From: Spirosomataceae bacterium TFI 002 | Lineage (GTDB): Bacteria; Bacteroidota; Bacteroidia; Cytophagales; Spirosomataceae | Length of the DNA: 64,000 nt | Direction: 5' to 3' | NCBI GenBank assembly: GCA_900230115.1 | Contig: LT907983.1 | Location: 4,107,001-4,171,000, forward strand | In this document: piece by piece, positions 43,721 to 57,175 of the stretch | Numbering within the stretch: the stretch's first letter is position 1 | How the letters are laid out: the number at the start of each line of letters is the position of its first letter | Notes under the pieces: generated by a model | The model's input: only the letters and a program-made list of their open reading frames with translations | Database searches by the model: none | What the model was told of the DNA's origin: nothing | Position numbers and translations under genes: made by a program

Positions 43721-45160
43721 ATGCCCAAGTTATATAAGATTTTAATTCTCTTAATCCTCACCTCCTGTATCCCCGCAAAGGATTCAAAGAAATCAATTGG
43801 TCAAAAGCAAAATCTCAAGCCAAATATCATCCTTATCATGACAGATGACCAAGGCTGGTTTGATGTTGGGTTTAATGGGAATGATGAGATCAAAACTCCA
43901 AACCTTGATGCTTTGGCTGCTAAAGGAATCATTTTAGATCGTTTTTATGCTGCTTCGGCGGTGTGTTCTCCTACTCGGGCAAGCTTGATCACAGGCAGAA
44001 ATCCGCTTCGCATGGATATTCCTTATGCCAATAATGGCCACATGAAAACCGAGGAAATTACCATTCCTGAGCTTTTGAAAAAAGAAGGTTATACGACAGG
44101 ACACTTTGGGAAGTGGCACTTAGGTACATTGAGTAAAACGGTACTGGATGCCAACAGAGGTGGAAAACCCCAATTCGAAAAGGATTATTCTATTCCTAGC
44201 CAGCATGGCTATGACCAGTTTTTTTGTACTGAATCCAAAGTGCCAACTTTTGACCCATTGATTCAACCTGCGAATTTTAAAGAAGGTGAAAGCTTACGAT
44301 ATGGCTGGAGAGCAGTTGAGGAAAATGAAGCTAGTAAAGCTTACGGCACTGCTTTTTGGAATAAGGAAAAGGAAAGTGAAACCAATAATCTAGAAGGAGA
44401 TGATTCCCGTGTGATCATGGATAGAGTCATTCCTTTCATTGAAAATGCCGACAAGCCATTCTTTTCTACTTTGTGGTTTCATACACCACATTTACCAGTG
44501 GTGAGTGATAAAACTCACCGCAATATTTACAAAAAATTAGATATAGAAAAGCAGTTGTATTACGGCACCATTACGGCAATGGATGAGCAAATGGGGAGGT
44601 TGTGGAATAAGCTCGAAGAATTGGGGGTTGCGGAAAATACCATTATCTTTTTCTGTAGTGATAACGGGCCAGAGCGAGATACTCCAGGAAGTGCGGGCAT
44701 TTTTAGAGAACGCAAAAGAAGTTTGTACGAAGGAGGAGTAAGGGTGCCTGCTTTTGTGGTTTGGAAGGGAAACTTTAGTAGCGGACAAAGAATCGATTTC
44801 CCTATGTCAACTTCCGATTATTTACCAACAATAGTTGATTTACTAGCAATCAAATACCCGGATACTCGCCCAATTGATGGCATAAGTATCTTGGATGCAT
44901 TGGAAGGAAAAGAACGCCAACGAACTAAACCTATGGGCTTTATTTGTACACCACAAATCTCCTGGGTCACACAGCAATATAAACTCATCACAGATGAAAA
45001 ACTTACAAAATTTGAACTGTATGATTTATTCAGCGATAAATCTGAAAAGCATAATGTAATAAGTGACTTTCCTGAAGTAGCGGCAAACATGAAAACTGAC
45101 TTACTACTTTGGCTTAAATCGGTAGAAAGAAGTAGTGAAGGGCTCGATTATAATAATTGA
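43721..45160 (+). CDS. Type I sulfatase (lipoprotein)
   Basis: A 479-residue arylsulfatase-family lipoprotein (lipobox LTSC, Cys16). The active-site signature is CSPTRASLITGR with Cys82, which is oxidised to formylglycine; the metal site starts with Asp42-Asp43 in MTDDQGWFDVG; the second signature is GHFGKWHLG. C-terminal region has WFHTPHLPVV and SDNGPERDTPG with further metal and sulfate ligands. It removes sulfate from a carbohydrate, probably of algal or animal type, at the cell surface. The maturation enzyme is not in this window. It lies with beta-helix and lipocalin-like genes. Confidence 0.9.
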   Translation: MPKLYKILILLILTSCIPAKDSKKSIGQKQNLKPNIILIMTDDQGWFDVGFNGNDEIKTPNLDALAAKGIILDRFYAASAVCSPTRASLITGRNPLRMDIPYANNGHMKTEEITIPELLKKEGYTTGHFGKWHLGTLSKTVLDANRGGKPQFEKDYSIPSQHGYDQFFCTESKVPTFDPLIQPANFKEGESLRYGWRAVEENEASKAYGTAFWNKEKESETNNLEGDDSRVIMDRVIPFIENADKPFFSTLWFHTPHLPVVSDKTHRNIYKKLDIEKQLYYGTITAMDEQMGRLWNKLEELGVAENTIIFFCSDNGPERDTPGSAGIFRERKRSLYEGGVRVPAFVVWKGNFSSGQRIDFPMSTSDYLPTIVDLLAIKYPDTRPIDGISILDALEGKERQRTKPMGFICTPQISWVTQQYKLITDEKLTKFELYDLFSDKSEKHNVISDFPEVAANMKTDLLLWLKSVERSSEGLDYNN

Positions 45161-47841: not shown

Positions 47842-49254
47842 TTATAACAGCGTGCTAGGGCACACGTAATTGGTTATTTCAAAACTTTCCGATTTTTTAA
47901 TCGCATCAAAACCTCCCTTAATATCTACCAAATTGCGGTAACCTCTCGATTGCAATATGGAAATGAAGGCAAGCGACCTATATCCACCAGCACAGTGAAT
48001 ATAATGTGTATTATCGGTTACAATCTTTTTCATGCTTTCGTTGATGTAATCCAATGGGGCATTGGTAGCTTCTACCATGTGCTCACTTTCGAATTCACTA
48101 TTCTTGCGAACATCCACAATTTCCGGAGCATTAATTTCTATTAGCTCTGCTACGCTTACAGACTTAATAGTGTCAACTTCTTTTCCTGCTGCTTTCCAAG
48201 CTTCAAAACCGCCTTTCAAGAAACCTTGTGCATTGTCGTAACCTACTCTAGCAAGTCTCGTAAGTATTTCTTCTAGTCGGTCTTCTTCTGCTACAATTAG
48301 TAACTCTTGTTTTACATCAGGAACGAGTGTTCCCACCCACGTGGCGAAGCTGCCATCGATACCAATAAAAATTGAATTGGGTACAAATCCGTCTCTGAAT
48401 TTATCCTTGTCTCGTGTGTCAATAATCACTGCATTGGTCTCATTGGCAACAACCTCAAACTCAGTAGGACTAAGTGCTCTTGTTCCTTTTTCTATCACAT
48501 TATCAAGTGAGTCGTAACCTTGAATATTGATAAGGACATTTTGAGGGAAATAGGATGGAGGTGGAGTTAGTCCGTTTAATACCTCTGCAACAAATTCCTC
48601 TTTAGTCATATCTGGTCTAAGAGCATAATTTGTCTTTTTCTGATTGCCAAGTGTGTCCGTAGTTTCGGAACTCATGTTTTTACCACAAGCACTGCCTTGA
48701 CCGTGATTTGGATATACAATGATATCGTCGTTCAACGGCATTATTTTGTTTCTCAGCGAATCGTACAAGTGAGCAGCTAGCTTTTCTTGGGTAAGTTCTG
48801 CAATTACTTTTTGAGCTAAATCAGGACGACCTACATCGCCAATGAATAAGGTATCACCAGAGAATAATCCCACCTCTTTGCCTTCTTCATTGCGAAGCAA
48901 TAGGCAAGAACTTTCCATGGTATGGCCAGGAGTGTGCAAGAGTTCAAGTGTTACATCTCCAAGTTTGAATATCTGTCCGTCAGTTGCGACTGTTTTTTTG
49001 AATCCAGTTTCCATCTCAGTGGGGCCATATACGATTTGAGCACCTGTTTTTTGTGCCAAATCAATGTGACCAGATACAAAGTCAGCATGGAAATGAGTTT
49101 CGAAAATGTATTTAATTTTTGCCCCATCTTTCTCCGCTCTTTCAAGGTAAGGTTGTGACTCTCTTAATGGGTCAATGATTGCAACTTCACCGTTTGATTC
49201 TATGTAATAGGCGGCTTCAGCTAAGCAACCAGTATATATTTGTTCAATTTTCAT
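47842..49254 (-). CDS. CstB-like persulfide dioxygenase-rhodanese fusion, second copy
   Basis: A 470-residue fusion. Residues 1-240 are an ETHE1-like metallo-beta-lactamase domain with THFHADFVSGH and HTPGHTMES, the Fe ligands of persulfide dioxygenases, and FSGDTLFIGDVGRPDL. A first rhodanese domain (about 255-365) lacks the catalytic Cys; the second (about 370-460) has it: Cys421 in HCAGGYRS. A further Cys is at 465 near the end. It should oxidise a persulfide to sulfite and pass sulfur to an acceptor. It is a paralogue of the 466-residue protein at 54864 and shares the same operator upstream. Confidence 0.87.
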   Translation of the reverse strand: MKIEQIYTGCLAEAAYYIESNGEVAIIDPLRESQPYLERAEKDGAKIKYIFETHFHADFVSGHIDLAQKTGAQIVYGPTEMETGFKKTVATDGQIFKLGDVTLELLHTPGHTMESSCLLLRNEEGKEVGLFSGDTLFIGDVGRPDLAQKVIAELTQEKLAAHLYDSLRNKIMPLNDDIIVYPNHGQGSACGKNMSSETTDTLGNQKKTNYALRPDMTKEEFVAEVLNGLTPPPSYFPQNVLINIQGYDSLDNVIEKGTRALSPTEFEVVANETNAVIIDTRDKDKFRDGFVPNSIFIGIDGSFATWVGTLVPDVKQELLIVAEEDRLEEILTRLARVGYDNAQGFLKGGFEAWKAAGKEVDTIKSVSVAELIEINAPEIVDVRKNSEFESEHMVEATNAPLDYINESMKKIVTDNTHYIHCAGGYRSLAFISILQSRGYRNLVDIKGGFDAIKKSESFEITNYVCPSTLL

Positions 49255-49369: not shown

Positions 49370-49413
49370 TAAAATTAGTGATTGAATTATTGTTGGAGCG
49401 TAACTATAGTTAC
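49370..49413 (-). promoter_or_regulatory. Operator and promoter of the second CstB-like gene
   Basis: Palindrome GTAAC-TATA-GTTAC at 49400-49413; -7 box TAATTTTA at 49377-49370 on the minus strand. The centre of the palindrome is 36.5 bp upstream of the box end, the same as in the other two sulfur promoters. Predicted 5' leader of about 110 bases. Confidence 0.7.
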
Positions 49414-49549
49414 AATTGGATATGATCAATGTCATTGTTTTCTAATAAATCATTTCTTTCCTTTTGGTACAATTCGCTAGCATACTGATACTGCATCATT
49501 CTCTTTAGGACTTAGCCGTTTAATCCTTTATTACTTACTACCAATTGAT

Positions 49550-49557
49550 TATTTTTG
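49550..49557 (+). promoter_or_regulatory. Putative -7 box of the second sulfatase gene
   Basis: TATTTTTG matches TAnnTTTG; the leader to the ATG at 49576 would be about 15 bases. It overlaps the TTG at 49555 that would be an alternative start, which supports 49576. The -33 region is weak. Confidence 0.45.
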
Positions 49558-49575
49558 GTAAAACTCAAAAAGTAT

Positions 49576-50994
49576 ATGAAGCGATTGGTTATTAAATTAG
49601 CTTGTGTTCTAGGACTTATTTTTATCAATGCCTGCGATAAACCTCACAAACAAAGACCTAATATCATTTACATTTTTACAGATCAGCAATATGCAGGAAT
49701 GATGTCCTGTGCTGGCAATGAATGGGTAAATACTCCTGCAATGGATTACATTGCTAACAATGGAATTAGGTTTACAAAAGCTTATACAACTAATCCCGTA
49801 TGTACTCCAGCTAGAATGAGTATGATCACCGGAAGATTTCCGTCTTACTTTAATGATAAAAATGGTAACGCAGTTCGAGAAAACTGGGGTGCAACTAGGG
49901 TTGAAGATATTCCTGCGGAGGTATTTACAACTAACATTGCACATTTTGCCAAAGAAGCTGGCTACGAACTTATTTTTGGTGGTAAAGAACATTTGCCCAA
50001 GGGCTTGCTCCCAGATTCACTTGGCTTTACCTATATCAGTGACAACGAAAGGGGAATATTAGCACAAGAAGCTGCAAAGGTGATTCGAAAGGAACACGAT
50101 AAGCCTTATATCATGATTGTATCGCTTATTAACCCTCATGATATTTGCTATATGGCAATAAGAGATTTTGCCGAAACACCACTTGATTCTATTTTACTTG
50201 CCAAAGGACAAACAGAACTCTCAGAGCTTGATAGGGCTTTGAATACACCAGAAGGGGTTACGGAAGAGGAGTTCTTCAAAAATTATTGTCCTCCATTACC
50301 ACCAAACTTTGAGAAACAAAAAGGAGAGCCAAAGGCCGTTGAGAAATTGTTATCCAATAGGTCGTTTAGAGAGAAAGCAAGAGGACAATACAGTGAAAAG
50401 CAATGGAGAATGCATAGGTGGGCATATGCTAGACTAACCGAAGTTGTGGATAAAGAAATTCAAGTAATTCTCGACGCTTTGAAAGAATCCAATGGTGAAG
50501 AGAATACTCTAGTAATGCTTTCGAGTGATCATGGTGATATGGATGCCTCTCATAGAATGGAGCACAAAAGTACCATGTACGAGGAAGCTACGAACATACC
50601 GTTTTTGGCCATGTGGAAAGGTAAAATAATGTCAGGTAAAGTTGATGATTCACACCTAATTTCCAACGGATTAGATTTCTTACCAACGCTGTGTGACTAT
50701 ATGGATGTGGAAGGTATGTCGGATCCTAGAGGAATGAGCCTAAGGCCATTGTTTGAGGGAAAATCAACCAAGTGGAGGAAAAACTTGGGTGTAGAAAGTG
50801 AGATAGGGAAAATGGTCGTAAGTGAGGATGGTTTTAAATACATTAGGTATGATTTCGCGGGAAATGAAGAACAACTTTTGGATCTCAACTTGGATCCGTT
50901 TGAAACTACGCATTTTACAGATTCACAAAACCATAAAGGCAAGTTGGAAGAGCTAAAAAAGATATATGACACAACTTGGTTTCCTGTCAATTAA
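49576..50994 (+). CDS. Type I sulfatase-like lipoprotein, second copy
   Basis: A 472-residue sulfatase-family lipoprotein (lipobox FINAC, Cys20). The formylglycine motif is CTPARMSMITGR with Cys76; metal-binding starts with IFTDQQYAGM, where a TDQ replaces TDD; SSDHGDMDASHRMEHKST is the C-terminal metal loop. The TDQQ and CTPAR forms resemble choline-sulfatase or phosphonate hydrolase-like branches, so the substrate may differ from that of the gene at 43721. The start TTG at 49555 overlaps the -7 box; the ATG at 49576 gives a proper lipoprotein signal. Lies between sulfide genes but on the opposite strand. Confidence 0.87.
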   Translation: MKRLVIKLACVLGLIFINACDKPHKQRPNIIYIFTDQQYAGMMSCAGNEWVNTPAMDYIANNGIRFTKAYTTNPVCTPARMSMITGRFPSYFNDKNGNAVRENWGATRVEDIPAEVFTTNIAHFAKEAGYELIFGGKEHLPKGLLPDSLGFTYISDNERGILAQEAAKVIRKEHDKPYIMIVSLINPHDICYMAIRDFAETPLDSILLAKGQTELSELDRALNTPEGVTEEEFFKNYCPPLPPNFEKQKGEPKAVEKLLSNRSFREKARGQYSEKQWRMHRWAYARLTEVVDKEIQVILDALKESNGEENTLVMLSSDHGDMDASHRMEHKSTMYEEATNIPFLAMWKGKIMSGKVDDSHLISNGLDFLPTLCDYMDVEGMSDPRGMSLRPLFEGKSTKWRKNLGVESEIGKMVVSEDGFKYIRYDFAGNEEQLLDLNLDPFETTHFTDSQNHKGKLEELKKIYDTTWFPVN

Positions 50995-51009
50995 TTAGAG
51001 GTATTAAAC

Positions 51010-51038
51010 AAAAAAAAGAGCACCATTTCGGTACTCTT
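51010..51038 (-). terminator. Rho-independent terminator after sqr
   Basis: Read on the minus strand: AAGAGTACC-N5-GGTGCTCTT (9-bp stem with one mismatch), then seven or more T residues (51015-51010). It closes the cydAB-sqr unit and separates it from the convergent sulfatase. Confidence 0.85.
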
Positions 51039-51061
51039 CTCGCTGATGTTTAAATCATAGG

Positions 51062-52324
51062 CTATACTTTTTCGCCTTTCATCATTTTATTCCAATACAA
51101 GTATGGAAGACCATATTTTTTAAGCATCCAGAGTCTCCAATGTTCCTTGGAGCTATCAAAAACAAGCATTTGTTTCAATTTTGGATCTGGAGTGAAGTTG
51201 TTTTTGTAATCAAATTCGGCTAAAACCATTTTGCCATATCCAGTTACAAGAGGACAAGAAGAATAGCCATTGTAACTTGAATTGGCAGGTGCCTGACCAT
51301 TAATCATAGCAACTAAGTTTTCTACCACAATTGGTACTTGCTTTCTGATCGCAGCTCCAGTTTTGGCAGTAGGTAATGCCGCTACATCTCCTAGCCCAAA
51401 GATATTAGGGTATTTATTGTGTTGCATGCTATTGTGGTCTACATCTAGCCAACCAGCATCATTTACCAAGCTAGATTCTTTGACAAACTTTGGGGCTGTT
51501 TGTGGTGGAGCTAGATGCAAGAAATCAAAAGGTACTTCAATAACAGATTCACCTGTCATTTTTTCGCCAATATCGTTTCCTTCATTTATGACACACATAT
51601 TTTCTCCAGTAGCGGTGTGTTTGAAATAAACGATTTTCTTTTCAGAGTCAATTTTAAACGGTGCGTAAAATGGTTTGAAGTGTATTCCATAGCGGTCGAT
51701 TACTTGATGAAGTGTATCTGCGACTTGCTTAACTCCAAATATCACGCTACCGGGCGTTGCAAATATTACGTTGGATTTATCTAAAATACCTCTCTTTCGA
51801 AAACTATCAGCGGCGAGGTAGGCTATTTTTTGAGGAGCTCCTCCACACTTGATAGGAGTAGTGGGTTGTGTAAAAACTGCATTTCCACCCTTGAATTTTT
51901 GCAACTGTTCCCAAGTGTATTGAGGATCAGTATAGTTGCTACACACAACTCCTTTTTCTAAAGCTTCCGGTAGGCCTTCTATCAATTCAGGTGCCATTAC
52001 TAAGCCCGGAGCAACAACTAAGAAATCATAGCTTATTACACTTCCTTTTTCAGTTGTTACATTGTTATTTTCTGGATCAAAACTTTTGGCATATTCCTTA
52101 ATCCAAGTAACACCTTTTGGCATTACATCCGCCATAGGTTTACTAGTTTTTCTGTAGTCATATGCCCCCGCACCCACCAGTGTCCAAGCTGGTTGATAAT
52201 AATGCTTGTCTGCGGGCTCTATGATCGCAATGTCAAGGTTTGAATTAATTTTCAATAATTGGGCACCTACCATAATGCCAGCAGTTCCACCACCAATTAT
52301 GAGTACCGTATGTTTCTTTTCCAT
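51062..52324 (-). CDS. sqr: Sulfide:quinone oxidoreductase, type II/SQOR-like
   Basis: A 420-residue FAD enzyme that oxidises sulfide and passes electrons to quinone. N-terminal FAD motif IIGGGTAGIMVG (9-20). The redox cysteines are Cys160 in TTPIKCGGAPQK and Cys357 in SSCPLVTGYGK, both in the context seen in human SQOR; a third Cys128 is at the position used by the A. ferrooxidans enzyme. C-terminal hydrophobic helices (WRLWMLKKYGLPYLYWN) anchor it to the membrane. Persulfide product would be taken by the CstB-like enzymes. Last gene of the cydAB-sqr group, with its own operator-bearing promoter. Confidence 0.9.
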   Translation of the reverse strand: MEKKHTVLIIGGGTAGIMVGAQLLKINSNLDIAIIEPADKHYYQPAWTLVGAGAYDYRKTSKPMADVMPKGVTWIKEYAKSFDPENNNVTTEKGSVISYDFLVVAPGLVMAPELIEGLPEALEKGVVCSNYTDPQYTWEQLQKFKGGNAVFTQPTTPIKCGGAPQKIAYLAADSFRKRGILDKSNVIFATPGSVIFGVKQVADTLHQVIDRYGIHFKPFYAPFKIDSEKKIVYFKHTATGENMCVINEGNDIGEKMTGESVIEVPFDFLHLAPPQTAPKFVKESSLVNDAGWLDVDHNSMQHNKYPNIFGLGDVAALPTAKTGAAIRKQVPIVVENLVAMINGQAPANSSYNGYSSCPLVTGYGKMVLAEFDYKNNFTPDPKLKQMLVFDSSKEHWRLWMLKKYGLPYLYWNKMMKGEKV

Positions 52325-52346
52325 GCTAGGGTTTAATTATTTCTTC

Positions 52347-52390
52347 GAAAAGTAACAATTATAGAAACAAGAAAATGTAACATGGGTTAC
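52347..52390 (-). promoter_or_regulatory. Operator and promoter of sqr
   Basis: Palindrome GTAAC-ATGG-GTTAC at 52377-52390; -7 box TACTTTTC at 52354-52347 on the minus strand. The spacing from the palindrome centre to the box end is 36.5 bp. It lies in the 75-bp gap between the cydB stop and the sqr start. Confidence 0.72.
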
Positions 52391-52399
52391 TTTGACCAG

Positions 52400-53437
52400 T
52401 TAGTAACTGGTCTCATCGAGCCTTACTTTTCCTTTAAATGTTTTATAAACAAAAATGGTGTAAGTAAGAATTATAGGTGTGCCTATGGCTGCCATAAATA
52501 ACATGATTCCCAATGTTTTTTCAGAAGAAGCTGCATCGTAAATACTGATATCATAAGATGGGTCTATTGATGATATAAGAATAGAAGGGTACAGCTCTAT
52601 CGCCACTACAAACAGAAAAAGTGCGATCGAAATGGCAGAAAAAATGAATGCCCTGAAAAAATTCTTTTTGCTCAAAAGCCGTGGAATATTCGCAATACTA
52701 AGCATACCTAGAAAAGGGATGATAGATAAAACTGGGTTTTCTTTAAAGCCATTGGATAAGTGAGGTATATACAAAAGCACATATGTTGTACTTACTGCAA
52801 ATAATGCTACAAATATCCATACAGATCTTTTTGTTAGGATTCCTATTTTAGCAAAGAGCCTTCCTTCGGTTTTCATGATTAAATAAATACCTCCGTGCAT
52901 CATGAACAGAGCTAAAGTTGTAATTCCGATGACGATTGAAAATGGGTTAAGAACCTCAAAAAGGCTCATTTGTAGTTGTCCATCTTTACCTATTGGGAGA
53001 CCTTGTAATACATTTCCTAGTACTACTCCTAGCAATGTAGCCAGTAAAATACTTGAAATAGAGTAGGAGATATCCCATGTTTTTCTCCACCACAGCATGG
53101 TTTCTTTACTTCTGAATTCTATTGAAATAGCTCTAAAAATCAGACTGAAAATGAATAGCATGAAAGGCACATACAGCCCCGAAAACAGTGTGGCGTACAC
53201 TATGGGAAAGCCTGCAAATAGTGCTCCTCCACCAATTACAAGCCAAACTTCATTACCGTCCCACACTGGACCTACAGCATTGAGTGCAATTCTGCGGCTT
53301 TCTTCTTTTTTGAAAAATAAATGCCATGCACCAGCTCCAAAGTCGAAACCGTCAAGTATGGCATAACCTGCAAATAATCCACCCACAACAAGGAACCAAA
53401 GAGTGGGGTAATCCAATCCTAAAATTGTAGCTTCCAT
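52400..53437 (-). CDS. cydB: Cytochrome bd oxidase subunit II (CydB)
   Basis: A 345-residue membrane protein with about eight or nine helices; CydB family. The first helix region reads LDYPTLWFLVVGGLFAGYAI and then LDGFDFGAGAW, the quinol-oxidase subunit II signature, and VWDGNEVWLVIGGGALFAGFP follows. CydB stabilises the haem-bearing CydA and shapes oxygen access. It starts 2 bp after cydA. Cytochrome bd is much less sensitive to sulfide than haem-copper oxidases in other bacteria, which makes sense next to sqr. Confidence 0.95.
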   Translation of the reverse strand: MEATILGLDYPTLWFLVVGGLFAGYAILDGFDFGAGAWHLFFKKEESRRIALNAVGPVWDGNEVWLVIGGGALFAGFPIVYATLFSGLYVPFMLFIFSLIFRAISIEFRSKETMLWWRKTWDISYSISSILLATLLGVVLGNVLQGLPIGKDGQLQMSLFEVLNPFSIVIGITTLALFMMHGGIYLIMKTEGRLFAKIGILTKRSVWIFVALFAVSTTYVLLYIPHLSNGFKENPVLSIIPFLGMLSIANIPRLLSKKNFFRAFIFSAISIALFLFVVAIELYPSILISSIDPSYDISIYDAASSEKTLGIMLFMAAIGTPIILTYTIFVYKTFKGKVRLDETSY

Positions 53438-53439
53438 TG

Positions 53440-54819
53440 TTAGTTTTTAGTTATGGTGTTTGTTATTTGTTTTTGTAAAGTCCCTTCCATATCGTCCTGT
53501 TCATTGTATGGGCCAGTTTTGATTTTCTTGTTCAAAAGGTAAATGAACAGCACAAATAAAATAGAATAAATAATGAAGAACATTATAAGCGACCATAGCA
53601 CTTGATTGGCCGTTACAACTGCCGAAAAGGCATCTGATGTACGTAAAAGTCCATAGACTACCCATGGTTGTCGACCCATTTCGGCGGCAAACCAACCAAA
53701 CTGATTTGCCAATTGGGGTAAAATAGCGGCAAAAACGAATGTGATTAACAGCCACTTTTTGTCAAAGAGAGAGCCTTTCCACCAGAAGTATATTCCCAAA
53801 ATCGTAAGTAAAATAAGTGCCATGCCAATTGCAACCATAAGATGGTAAAACTGGAATACTGCATTCACTTGACCGGGCTGATCTTCTTTTGCAAATGCAT
53901 CCAAACCTGTTACATGTTTTTGGAAATCACCGTAAATTAAATACGATAGTCCTCCTGGGACTTTCATGCCGTAGGTTTTTTTGTTGTCTTTATCAATCCA
54001 TCCCAAAAGATACATGTCACCCGGTGCACTTTTTTCAAAATGCCCTTCAAAAGCTGCAAGTTTAGCTGGTTGATTTACGGCTACACCGTTTGCTGAGTGA
54101 TGGCCAGTAACTAATTGTGAAAGTGAAAACACAGTAGCAACTACCAAAGCGATTTTGAATGCTTTTTTCGAAATTTCTAAATACCTGCCTTTGATTATAT
54201 AGTAAGCATGCACACTCATCACTAAAAACGCTCCTGACAAGAATGCACCAAGCCATGTGTGTGTAAGCCGATCAACACTTGATGGGTTAAACACCATCGC
54301 CCAAAAGTCAATGATTTCGGCCCTTGCATTAATTCCTTCTCCAACAATGTGAAATCCCGCCGGAGTTTGTTGCCAACTGTTAGCAACTACAATCCAAACA
54401 GCACTGAACATAGAGCCAAGAAAAACACCAATGGTTGCTATTAAGTGGACTTTGGGAGAAACTCTATTCCAACCGAAAAGCAGAATCCCTAAAAAACCAC
54501 TTTCTAGTGCAAAAGCAAAGATACCTTCAGCTGCCAAAGCACTTCCAAATACATCGCCGACATACTTAGAATAGGTAGCCCAGTTGGTTCCAAATTCGAA
54601 TTCCATAACAATACCGGTCGCTACGCCAATACCAAAGGTTAAAGCAAATATCTTGGTCCAAAACTTGGCTAGTATTTCGTATTCTTTATTTCCTGTCCGA
54701 ATATAATTGCCTTCAAAAATTACCATTAATAGACCCAGTCCTATACTTAAAGGAGGATAGATGTAATGGAATGCAATGGTGAATGCGAATTGAATTCTTG
54801 CTAAAATTTCAACTTCCAT
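53440..54819 (-). CDS. cydA: Cytochrome bd oxidase subunit I (CydA)
   Basis: A 459-residue membrane protein. Haem ligand His17 lies in [17 protein letters not shown] near the N-terminus; the quinol-binding region has [39 protein letters not shown] is the conserved loop between later helices. The Q-loop is of the short type. It reduces O2 to water with quinol. No CydX-like gene was found. The ATG is 15 bp past the T run of a terminator that follows the upstream CstB-like gene, so cydAB may depend on read-through or on a promoter inside that gene. Confidence 0.95.
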
Positions 54820-54833
54820 GATAGTATTAAGAT

Positions 54834-54857
54834 AAAAAAAGAGGCCGAAGCCTCTTT
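54834..54857 (-). terminator. Rho-independent terminator between the CstB-like gene and cydA
   Basis: Read on the minus strand: AAAGAGGC-TTCG-GCCTCTTT (8-bp perfect stem, UUCG-type loop) followed by a T run to 54834. It lies 7 bp after the CstB-like stop and 15 bp before the cydA start. Confidence 0.9.
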
Positions 54858-54863
54858 AGAAAT

Positions 54864-56264
54864 TTATAATGTTGAAGGACAAACGTAATTGCTTACTGGT
54901 ATTTCAGTGCCTTTAATAGCGGCAAAGCCACCAGCTACATCAATTAAGTTGTGTATACCTCGAGACTTTAGAATACTACTAGCGATCATAGAGCGATAAC
55001 CCCCTGCACAATGAACATAAAACTCTTCGCTTGGGATACTTGCCAAATGATTATTTAAATCAGATAAAGGAAAGTTTTCTGCTCCTAAAACGTGTTCCGA
55101 TAGATATTCAGATTCTTTTCTAACATCAATTACTTTTGCAGCTTTAATGTTTTCAGCTAATTCACTTGCTGGAATTGAAGTTACACTGTCTGTGTCAAAT
55201 CCTGCCTTTTCCCAAGCTTCAACTCCTCCTTTCAAGAATCCTATTGTATTATCAAAACCTACTCTCGATAATCTAGTAACAGCTTCTTCCACTCTATCTT
55301 CATCTGCAATAAGCAAGATTGGCTGTAAAGTATCTTTGATCAAATCTCCAACCCAAGGGGCAAAACCACCATCTAGTCCAATAAAAATTGATCGGGGAAT
55401 GTGTTTTTCTGCAAACTCAGCAGGTTTTCTTACGTCCAGTACCACTGCTCCAGTTTCGTTCGCTGCTGCTTCGAATGCCTTTGGAGATAGTGCCACATTA
55501 CCTTTGGCCAAGACTTTATCGAAAGATTCGTACCCTTCTTTGTTCATTTGAACATTCAGTGGGAAATAGGCTGGTGGGGGTAGTAAGCCATCTGTAACTT
55601 CTTTGATGAATTCATCTTTAGTCATATCGGCTCTAAGGGCATAGTTCATGGCTTTTTGATTACCAAGTGTATCCACTGTTTCCTTCATCATATTTTTACC
55701 ACATGCAGATCCTGCTCCGTGAGCTGGGTATACTGTAATGTCATCTGCCAGTGGCATGATCTTATTTCTTAAGCTGTCAAAAAGTAAACCAGCTAAGTCT
55801 TCTTGCGTCATGCTAGCTGCTTTTTGTGCAAGATCGGGTCTACCCACATCTCCTAAGAAAAGTGTATCTCCAGAGAAAATTGCGTGGTCTTTGCCATTTT
55901 CATCTTTTAGCAAATAGGTTGTACTTTCCATAGTATGTCCAGGAGTATGAAGCACAATGAAAGTCAATTTTCCGAGCTTGAACTCTTGATTGTCTTTCGC
56001 AATAATGGCTTCGAAACTTGGATTTGCGTTTGGTCCATAGATAATAGGTGCTCCTGTTTCTTGAGAAAGTGTAACATGACCGCTCACAAAGTCAGCATGG
56101 AAATGAGTTTCAAAGATATATTTGATTTTAGCTCCTGCTTTCTCAGCCTTTTCTATGTATGGGCCCACTTCGCGTAGCGGATCTATGATTGCAACCTCAC
56201 CTTCACTTTCAATGTAATACGCTCCTTGAGCAAGACAACCGGTATATATTTGTTCTATTTTCAT
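54864..56264 (-). CDS. CstB-like persulfide dioxygenase-rhodanese fusion, first copy
   Basis: A 466-residue fusion with the same layout as the protein at 47842. ETHE1-like domain: His54, His56, Asp58 in THFHADFVSGH, HTPGHTMES, and FSGDTLFLGDVGRPDLA. First rhodanese domain (about 250-360) has IADEDR in place of the catalytic Cys loop, so it is a pseudo-rhodanese; the second carries Cys419 in HCAGGYRS and a last Cys462 close to the C-terminus. This three-domain plan is that of S. aureus CstB, which oxidises persulfide to sulfite/thiosulfate. Second gene of the tauE-led unit, 31 bp after tauE. Confidence 0.88.
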   Translation of the reverse strand: MKIEQIYTGCLAQGAYYIESEGEVAIIDPLREVGPYIEKAEKAGAKIKYIFETHFHADFVSGHVTLSQETGAPIIYGPNANPSFEAIIAKDNQEFKLGKLTFIVLHTPGHTMESTTYLLKDENGKDHAIFSGDTLFLGDVGRPDLAQKAASMTQEDLAGLLFDSLRNKIMPLADDITVYPAHGAGSACGKNMMKETVDTLGNQKAMNYALRADMTKDEFIKEVTDGLLPPPAYFPLNVQMNKEGYESFDKVLAKGNVALSPKAFEAAANETGAVVLDVRKPAEFAEKHIPRSIFIGLDGGFAPWVGDLIKDTLQPILLIADEDRVEEAVTRLSRVGFDNTIGFLKGGVEAWEKAGFDTDSVTSIPASELAENIKAAKVIDVRKESEYLSEHVLGAENFPLSDLNNHLASIPSEEFYVHCAGGYRSMIASSILKSRGIHNLIDVAGGFAAIKGTEIPVSNYVCPSTL

Positions 56265-56295
56265 TTTTATTTCCTTTAATTTTTTAACACAAATT

Positions 56296-57108
56296 TTAAG
56301 ACATCAATTCCTTGTACATGATATAAACAGCCATTACTAAAACGAACCATGCGAACCCTTTCTTGAGGCTACTACCATTGATAAACTTACTTAACCATAT
56401 ACCTACAAATATTCCAATAATTGAAATGGCTGTAAATGGTAGCAAGAAAGCCCAATCAATAGTTAGGTTTTGGACGTCTCCAATGAAACCTATTAATGAT
56501 TTTACTGCTATAATAAGTAGAGAAGTAGCAACTGCCTTTTTCATTGGTAGTTTTGCCAATAACACTAATGCTGGGATGATAAGAAAACCTCCGCCGGCAC
56601 CTACCAGACCAGTAAGTGCTCCTACAACTGTTCCTTCTAAAACTACTAATCCATAATTCAACTTTATTTTTTCTTGCATTGCGACTTCGTCACAATCTTT
56701 ACATTGAGCTTGCCTTAGCATTGAAATCGCGGCGGCAAACATTATGAATGCAAAAAATAACATGATTGCTAGGTCCTTGGTAATGAGCAAACTTCCAATG
56801 CTAAAAAGCTCGTCAGGAATTGCAGGAATTGCATATCTCCTTGTAAGATAAACAGCAATAAACGCTGGAATCATAAAGACAATAGCAGTTTTTATTTCAA
56901 CCAAACCCTTAGTCATGTTTCGTATTGCCCCTACTAATGAAGTTGACCCTACTACAAATAATGAGTAGGCCGTTGACACTACTGGACTAATACCTAATAA
57001 ATACACCAAAATGGGCACTGTGAGGATGGAGCCTCCTCCGCCAATAAGGCCAAGTGTAATTCCTATTAACAAAGCTCCTCCAAATCCTATAAGTTCTACT
57101 GTTTGCAA
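56296..57108 (-). CDS. TauE/SafE-family sulfite exporter
   Basis: A 270-residue membrane protein with about eight helices, PF01925 family. The first helix GGALLIGITLGLIGGGGSIL and the repeat LTGLVGAGGGFLIIPALVLL are family motifs. Family members export sulfite, sulfoacetate or other sulfur anions; in the S. aureus cst operon a TauE protein occurs with CstB and SQR. The open frame begins with a TTG at 57156 with no ATG. I use the TTG at 57108, because it directly precedes the usual N-terminus and lies downstream of the predicted -7 box at 57132. Confidence 0.85.
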   Translation of the reverse strand: MQTVELIGFGGALLIGITLGLIGGGGSILTVPILVYLLGISPVVSTAYSLFVVGSTSLVGAIRNMTKGLVEIKTAIVFMIPAFIAVYLTRRYAIPAIPDELFSIGSLLITKDLAIMLFFAFIMFAAAISMLRQAQCKDCDEVAMQEKIKLNYGLVVLEGTVVGALTGLVGAGGGFLIIPALVLLAKLPMKKAVATSLLIIAVKSLIGFIGDVQNLTIDWAFLLPFTAISIIGIFVGIWLSKFINGSSLKKGFAWFVLVMAVYIMYKELMS

Positions 57109-57131
57109 CGAATTGTTATTTTGATTGAGTA

Positions 57132-57175
57132 CAAAGGTGACATATGCAGTGAACAAGTGGTGTAACTTGAGTTAC
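57132..57175 (-). promoter_or_regulatory. Operator and promoter of the tauE-CstB-like unit
   Basis: Palindrome GTAAC-TTGA-GTTAC at 57162-57175; -7 box CACCTTTG at 57139-57132 on the minus strand (one mismatch to TAnnTTTG). Centre to box end is 36.5 bp, as in the other two sulfur promoters. Confidence 0.7.

Follow-up and report, generated by a model that had tools for sequence, protein, structure and literature searches.

A palindromic operator at fixed distance from sulfur-gene promoters in a Spirosomataceae bacterium, and a Crp/Fnr-superfamily protein as its probable class II activator

In a 64,000 nucleotide stretch of the genome of Spirosomataceae bacterium TFI 002 (contig LT907983.1, positions 4,107,001 to 4,171,000; here called the window, with coordinates counted from its first base), the palindrome GTAAC-N4-GTTAC stands upstream of a second CstB-like gene, of the sulfide:quinone oxidoreductase (SQR) gene sqr and of tauE. 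The analyses reported here establish by computation the operator sequence, its spacing from a promoter box, its association with one regulator family and the content of the genes behind it. We consider it very probable that the palindrome serves as operator for a single class II activator of the Crp/Fnr superfamily, in this genome the 221 aa protein P0001, and we infer both its binding and, from the geometry of the sites, its role as an activator.

The exact palindrome is found just three times in the window, where 0.01 copies would be expected and where none of 100 shuffles contained three; all are assigned to the minus strand: GTAACTATAGTTAC at 49400..49413 ahead of the second CstB-like gene, GTAACCCATGTTAC at 52377..52390 ahead of sqr (9 nt past the cydB stop) and GTAACTCAAGTTAC at 57162..57175 ahead of tauE. 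A scan of the window at one mismatch gave no further copy, so that both the three sites and their uniqueness, as claimed in an initial annotation made from these letters alone, are borne out. In the direction of the sulfur genes an 8-mer ends exactly 30 nt past the last base of each site (TAATTTTA at 49370..49377, TACTTTTC at 52347..52354 and CACCTTTG at 57132..57139, likewise on the minus strand), and the annotated distance of 36.5 bp between the end of this −7 box and the palindrome centre recurs at all three, the tauE box being one base off TAnnTTT. No match to a Crp helix–turn–helix (HTH) or cyclic nucleotide monophosphate (cNMP)-binding domain maps to the window at E 0.001, in line with the annotation's remark that it contains no regulator gene.

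Across the genome (5.46 Mb, one contig) the exact palindrome occurs eight times, with four copies inside open reading frames (ORFs); because the same arms at other spacings give 0–2 copies per 1.46 Mb of related contigs, a mean of about four per 5.5 Mb, these four are about what chance would supply, and the abundance in coding sequence that the annotation had named as an adverse outcome was not seen. The fourth intergenic copy lies outside the window, at 4084702, with a box, TAGCTTTA, that again ends at +30; downstream follows an operon (L029:4782-7371) that encodes a 137 aa protein (no match in Pfam) along with a Tll0287-like protein and an SQR/FCSD-like flavoprotein. Absent from the DNA on which the annotation was based, this site bears the prediction out independently. 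Another tauE-like gene, at a different place in the genome (L002:826-1683), has one of the eight palindromes within its coding sequence, a copy that is taken as chance.

The same element emerges when contigs are selected without regard to it. Eighty named contigs (1.46 Mb, mostly Flavobacteriaceae by title), the best 80 of 586 confirmed candidates, were fetched by regulator alignment only, and in them GTAAC ranks first of 1024 pentamer palindromes with an N4 spacer, with 122 copies against 0–2 for the same arms at spacings of 2, 3 and 5–9; at least one exact site is present in 57 of the 80. Leaving out one of the 122 sites, which has less than 100 nt of flank, TAnnTTTN ends exactly at +30 in 91 of 121, and when box matches in both orientations are counted there are 94 at +30, eight at +29 and 0–5 at the other offsets from +8 to +77 (beyond +77 the highest count is eight, at +87). 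In the spacers of 95 promoters TTG is found in at most six, and TTTG in at most three, at any position, i.e. there is no conserved −33 element. A passage of a Flavobacterium psychrophilum study places the TAnnTTTG box at −12 to −5 (PMC9723704), and because of that published position and the fixed spacing the operator centre would be at −41.5, as predicted from the box in another genus. The class II Crp/Fnr geometry with an operator near −41, proposed in the annotation, is thus supported by the predicted centre, by the box offset in the regulator-fetched contigs, by the spacer without a −33 element and by the fourth genomic site with its sulfur operon. Of 102 predicted start codons, 64 lie 15–26 nt past the box. 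Among single changes, the 80 contigs tolerate T12 to C best (nine cases, where control offsets give 0.06) and T12 to A next (six cases); this base belongs to the promoter-proximal arm.

On good though indirect evidence, P0001 (G000:C1:747813-748475, L010:985-1647), encoded about 3.4 Mb from the window by genome coordinates, is most likely the regulator of the window operators. The genome contains three Crp-HTH matches at E 0.001, two of them over the cut-off, with P0001 among these (the third, under the cut-off, lies in an ORF that appears Lrp-like by eye), and the remaining cNMP-domain proteins have HTH regions that by eye are divergent or missing. P0001 exceeds the Pfam cut-offs for PF00027 (34.6 bits, cut-off 27.5), PF13545 (37.2, cut-off 27) and PF00325 (27.3, cut-off 21), carries the motif DTCAVTLNCC in its cNMP domain and the recognition helix SSRVVISR, and is the sole homologue at E 1e-20 in this genome. 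A Crp fold is seen in the model of a homologue (L096; pLDDT 88.8, pTM 0.65), whose best Foldseek match is the T. thermophilus CAP (E 1.6e-15, TM 0.68). P0001 scores below the curated cut-offs of the models for cAMP-CRP (NF008732, 57.9 versus 266 bits), NtcA (TIGR03697, 41.4 versus 244.95 bits) and FNR (NF008365, 23.5 versus 228 bits), and conserved N-terminal Fe-S cysteines of the FNR type were not found, its Cys10 and Cys31 not being conserved. Among 30 homologue loci, 10 have sqr, cstB, tauE or cydA within about 1.5 kb of the regulator gene. Between P0001 and a neighbouring gene that appears BlaI-like by eye, several copies of a different palindrome, TACGAA...TTCGTA, are found (L010:740-830; G000 about 747.55–747.64 kb), perhaps the operator of the BlaI-like repressor.

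Of 194 genomes from its order, 94 have a homologue of P0001 at E 1e-20 or better, and the exact operator-plus-box occurs in 28 of these 94 and in none of the 100 genomes without a homologue (hypergeometric 1.4e-10), or in 27 of 93 versus 0 of 100 when the window's own genome is excluded. In total the 194 genomes yield 38 exact operator-plus-box matches against nine for a reversed control, three of the nine falling in genomes without a homologue, so that chance may account for a few of the 38. The related form GTGAC-N4-GTCAC plus box is found in 13 of the 194, each of them with a P0001 homologue (21 matches; three in the control). By eye, the first genes downstream in this set encode rhodanese, YgaP-TM, TauE, CstB, SQR, SulP, peroxiredoxin and efflux proteins, with some other genes and some sides without an ORF. 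The bare palindrome was discarded as a marker of the family, some copy being present in 141 of 150 genomes; the box spacing is needed for specificity.

The gene content behind these promoters is largely that of sulfur metabolism. In the relatives' contigs, 103 operator-plus-box promoters in 54 contigs were counted (with a spacer of 21 or 22 nt, the other operator-plus-box scans using 22 only, and with a site that has boxes on both sides entered twice), and of the 102 with a downstream ORF, 68 precede sulfur genes, as judged by the top BLAST match among this genome's own sulfur genes (CstB/rhodanese, TauE, SQR/FCSD) and by Pfam (SulP, Mo-oxidoreductase, YedE, YgaP). Setting aside two ORFs of 51 and 53 aa, the 100 remaining genes carry rhodanese (29), metallo-beta-lactamase (25), TauE (18), sulfate permease (6), Pyr_redox_2 (6), Tll0287-like (5), fatty-acid hydroxylase (5), AhpC/TSA (4), molybdopterin oxidoreductase (3), outer-membrane efflux (3), YgaP-TM (3), DUF983 (3), cytochrome c (3), cytochrome bd (2) and Sulf_transp (2) domains, in a tally drawn from 25 of 43 families; in six of the 100 the downstream gene is the regulator itself. 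Some targets are not obviously sulfur genes.

Within this genome, target calls were limited to operator-plus-box matches with no or one mismatch, of which the latter number six. One is the window tauE promoter, another lies inside an ORF (odhB-like by eye), and the other four all read GTAAC-N4-GTCAC, i.e. they carry the T12 to C substitution that is tolerated most in the relatives. These four predicted promoters precede a small YgaP-TM/rhodanese pair, a Dps-like ferritin gene, a SoxA/TsdA cytochrome-DsrE-SoxB-like-YedE cluster (whose SoxA, SoxB and TsuA NCBIfam matches are below the cut-offs) and a gene for a 165 aa protein of no Pfam family. A list with up to two mismatches was rejected as mostly noise, the reversed control (70 matches) exceeding the real pattern (31), and the DUF6132-rhodanese and OsmC-like promoters found there are weak candidates.

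A natural variation in the regulator appears to be mirrored in the operator. The recognition helix of the relatives is mostly SR-V-V or SR-E-V, and Val192 of P0001 aligns with Glu181 of CRP. Replacement of that Glu by Val in CRP shifts its preference from TGTGA towards TGTAA. In a passage on CRP, Glu181 is named with two other residues of the helix as contacting DNA (13, 14 and 18 in HTH numbering; PMC2633013). When all 114 homologues of the order set were typed (one was unreadable), Val-only genomes had the GTAAC form in 20 of 37 cases and the GTGAC form in none of the 37, Glu-only genomes had GTAAC in 5 of 50 and GTGAC in 11 of 50, and genomes with both types had GTAAC in three and GTGAC in two of six (Fisher P 1e-5 and 0.002 for helix type against operator, uncorrected for relatedness). 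In a comparison near the regulator genes themselves (12 RVV loci against 16 or 18 REV loci, from the 30 homologue loci, with about 1.5 kb on each side), GTGA-N6-TCAC occurs 13 times at spacing 6 near the 18 REV genes and 0–2 times at other spacings, and at spacing 6 in none of the 12 RVV loci. In these comparisons, Glu at position 192 tends to go with GTGAC and Val with GTAAC, with known exceptions.

The signal is approached through a set of cysteines. The former nucleotide pocket of P0001 reads CAVTLNCC, and in the readable rows of P0001 and 78 of its 80 relatives (n=79; L118 and L146 are unreadable) Cys86 is present in 79, Cys92 in 74 and Cys93 in 73. Cys86 is also present in 113 of the 114 order-set homologues, the remaining one being unreadable, whereas Cys92/93 vary in this more distant set and are often absent. 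By alignment to CRP, Cys86 stands at the start of what we take to be the nucleotide-binding cassette, and in the L096 model just ahead of helix 87–94 (the structure alignment took in 36 of the 80 regulators). Two Val-type subgroups lack the full CX5CC, one with CIMSFLGG (L302, L309, L310, L315, L317, L320, L322, L325 and L326) and one with CMMSLLSC (L331-L334); the GTAAC operator-plus-box is present in genomes of these subgroups, in several (L206-L211) 5' of rhodanese-type genes. Three Lutibacter contigs (L106, L108 and L110) have a regulator without CX5CC and no exact operator, and in L106 and L108 a second regulator paralogue lies close by. We hypothesize that the signal is a reactive sulfur species acting at Cys86, in agreement with the gene content and with the role of persulfides in other regulators, as given in passages of two papers (PMC10451225, PMC7315123). 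The second of these lists a Crp-like protein of Acinetobacter baumannii, A1S_1182, as persulfidated, with a functional effect that is unknown in that account (PMC7315123).

We suggest the following mechanism. A P0001 dimer would occupy GTAAC-N4-GTTAC with its centre at −41.5, in the place of a −33 element, and would recruit RNA polymerase to the TAnnTTT −7 box; the hypothetical signal, persulfide or polysulfide, would modify Cys86, together with Cys92/93 in members that have them, within the degenerate cyclic-nucleotide pocket. The regulon would comprise sulfide oxidation (sqr, the SQR/FCSD-like gene and two persulfide dioxygenase-rhodanese genes), export (tauE) and the cytochrome bd oxidase and, through GTAAC-N4-GTCAC, the SoxA/TsdA-DsrE-SoxB-YedE thiosulfate cluster and the small YgaP-rhodanese pair. 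The wider proposition is that many Bacteroidota share a sulfur activator that works by class II activation at TAnnTTT promoters, whose Crp-type nucleotide pocket has become a cysteine sensor of reactive sulfur, and whose operator has alternated in evolution between GTGAC and GTAAC along with one contact residue, Glu/Val192; it seems to us evenly balanced.

A signal of another kind, with the same operator, regulator and class II activation, concerns the signal step only and overlaps with the mechanism just described. Crp/Fnr proteins sense many things, and nitric oxide (NO), oxygen, peroxide or a pocket ligand is a tentative possibility to which we give some weight: peroxidase-type genes are found downstream (AhpC/TSA, 4 of 100), this genome contributes the Dps-like ferritin and the weak, two-mismatch OsmC-like gene, Cys92/93 are lost in many members and the cNMP-type domain is retained. 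However, sulfur genes make up the majority of those downstream (68 of 102), and no readable member lacks Cys86, which stands at the start of the helix in the former nucleotide pocket.

That another protein binds the sites is unlikely. P0001 is unlinked to them, and no protein of the genome scores higher for the Crp HTH than a response-regulator/Crp fusion encoded at 4771 kb; a Crp-like protein with a divergent HTH would be a further candidate. Yet the palindrome was recovered blind around relatives of P0001, among the 194 genomes the exact operator-plus-box turned up only where such a relative is present, and the fusion was dropped as the binder since its recognition helix differs (SLETAIRT). 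Also unlikely is a repressor or dual regulator with sulfide relieving repression, as might be suggested by the ArsR-family SqrR and SoxR, which repress according to one paper (PMC10451225): the predicted centre at −41.5, together with a missing −33 element and no overlap with the −7 box, is the position of an activator, and the regulator genes in relatives that bear the operator (6 of 100) entered the set by this same spacing. An origin of the palindromes by chance near promoters, in favour of which the four ORF copies among the eight could be cited, is refuted by the blind palindrome count, the fixed box offset and the 194-genome control, beside the 0.01 copies expected in the window, and this reading can be neglected.

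Several observations weigh against P0001 as the sulfur-responsive activator of these operators, or against parts of that reading. In this genome P0001 adjoins no sulfur gene, and its own gene has neither an exact palindrome nor an operator-plus-box at up to three mismatches; autoregulation of P0001 here was dropped for that reason. No exact site is present in 23 of the 80 contigs, nor an exact operator-plus-box in 17 of the 37 Val-only genomes, and no GTAA-N6-TTAC was found at the 12 Val-type loci within about 1.5 kb on each side. The link between helix and operator is likewise imperfect: an exact box at +30 accompanies only two of the 13 GTGA-N6-TCAC sites in the neighbourhood of Glu-type genes, GTGA-N6-TCAC is also slightly overrepresented in Val-type contigs (22 copies, against 3–14 at other spacings), and the GTAAC form occurs in five Glu-only genomes, which rules out a strict rule, and in G162 (L231) directly 5' of the genome's own Glu-type regulator gene. 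With regard to the signal, Cys92/93 vary, with CGG in 16 Val-type members, and in several of the genomes of these members operators still stand 5' of rhodanese-type genes; therefore at most Cys86 would be the common sensor.

The predicted target genes of the window all lie on the minus strand. The second CstB-like gene (47842..49254), with metallo-beta-lactamase and rhodanese domains, begins 115 nt past its box, and the best solved match of the sqr product (gene at 51062..52324) is mitochondrial SQR (6mp5, E 1.8e-98). The predicted tauE operon consists of tauE (TauE/SafE family, 56296..57108), the first CstB-like gene (54864..56264, after a 31 nt gap), cydA (cytochrome bd subunit I, 53440..54819) and cydB (subunit II, 52400..53437); the CstB-like protein is closest to the metallo-beta-lactamase-rhodanese proteins 3tp9 and 3r2u among solved structures. 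The listed tauE start, TTG at 57156, lies upstream of the predicted transcription start, and on inspection of the sequence the TTG at 57108 appears to fit better. Two ORFs that by eye are sulfatase-like lie near the sulfur genes (43721-45160 and 49555-50994). The operator at 49400 also lies 5' of the second of these, on the plus strand, and on that side no exact TAnnTTT box was found at +30 (a two-mismatch match only).

Bacteroidota are common in sediments and coastal waters, and to our knowledge no regulator of sulfide or thiosulfate oxidation genes has been described in them. The fixed operator–promoter spacing lets a sulfur regulon be read from sequence alone, genomes gain a named candidate regulator of their sulfur genes, and the regulators and operators form a natural series, a test case for one recognition-helix residue setting a base. 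A literature search of titles and listings with some passages, covering few subscription journals, did not find this regulator subfamily, its operator or a Bacteroidota sulfur regulon.

The kind of system, a Crp/Fnr activator at a class II promoter, is already known. With E. coli CRP at class II promoters the P0001 family shares the fold, the HTH and the predicted −41.5 dyad, and its Glu-type members go with GTGAC-N4-GTCAC, the core of TGTGA-N6-TCACA, which is given as the CRP site in a passage of PMC4868304. It differs from CRP in its pocket cysteines, its Bacteroidota TAnnTTT promoter and its sulfur rather than carbon genes. Cyanobacterial NtcA is also a Crp/Fnr activator, and NtcA structures are among the structure matches of the P0001 family. 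The R-V recognition helix of NtcA reads GTA-N8-TAC, a pattern that GTAAC-N4-GTTAC satisfies; in contrast, the regulon here is one of sulfur, not nitrogen, and we have no evidence of 2-oxoglutarate or PipX for P0001. The persulfidated A1S_1182 is 50% identical to E. coli Crp and is linked to biofilm by its authors, and the passages concerning it give no sulfur regulon (PMC7315123). The nearest solved sequence is 3dv8, a Crp/Fnr protein of Eubacterium rectale (E 1.5e-32), which has cysteines in the same loop (CLLSASC) but comes from another phylum, as a structural genomics entry. We know of no described function for it. HcpR of Porphyromonas gingivalis (9day), a Bacteroidota Crp/Fnr regulator that responds to NO, is matched by both sequence and fold, at only E 2.2e-8. 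Finally, SqrR, BigR and SoxR (of the ArsR family), CstR and FisR control sqr, persulfide dioxygenase, rhodanese and TauE-type genes. Passages of two papers describe cysteine-based sensing of reactive sulfur for these regulators (PMC10451225, PMC7315123); their families are unrelated to the Crp/Fnr protein P0001, and SqrR and SoxR repress, whereas P0001 is placed as an activator.

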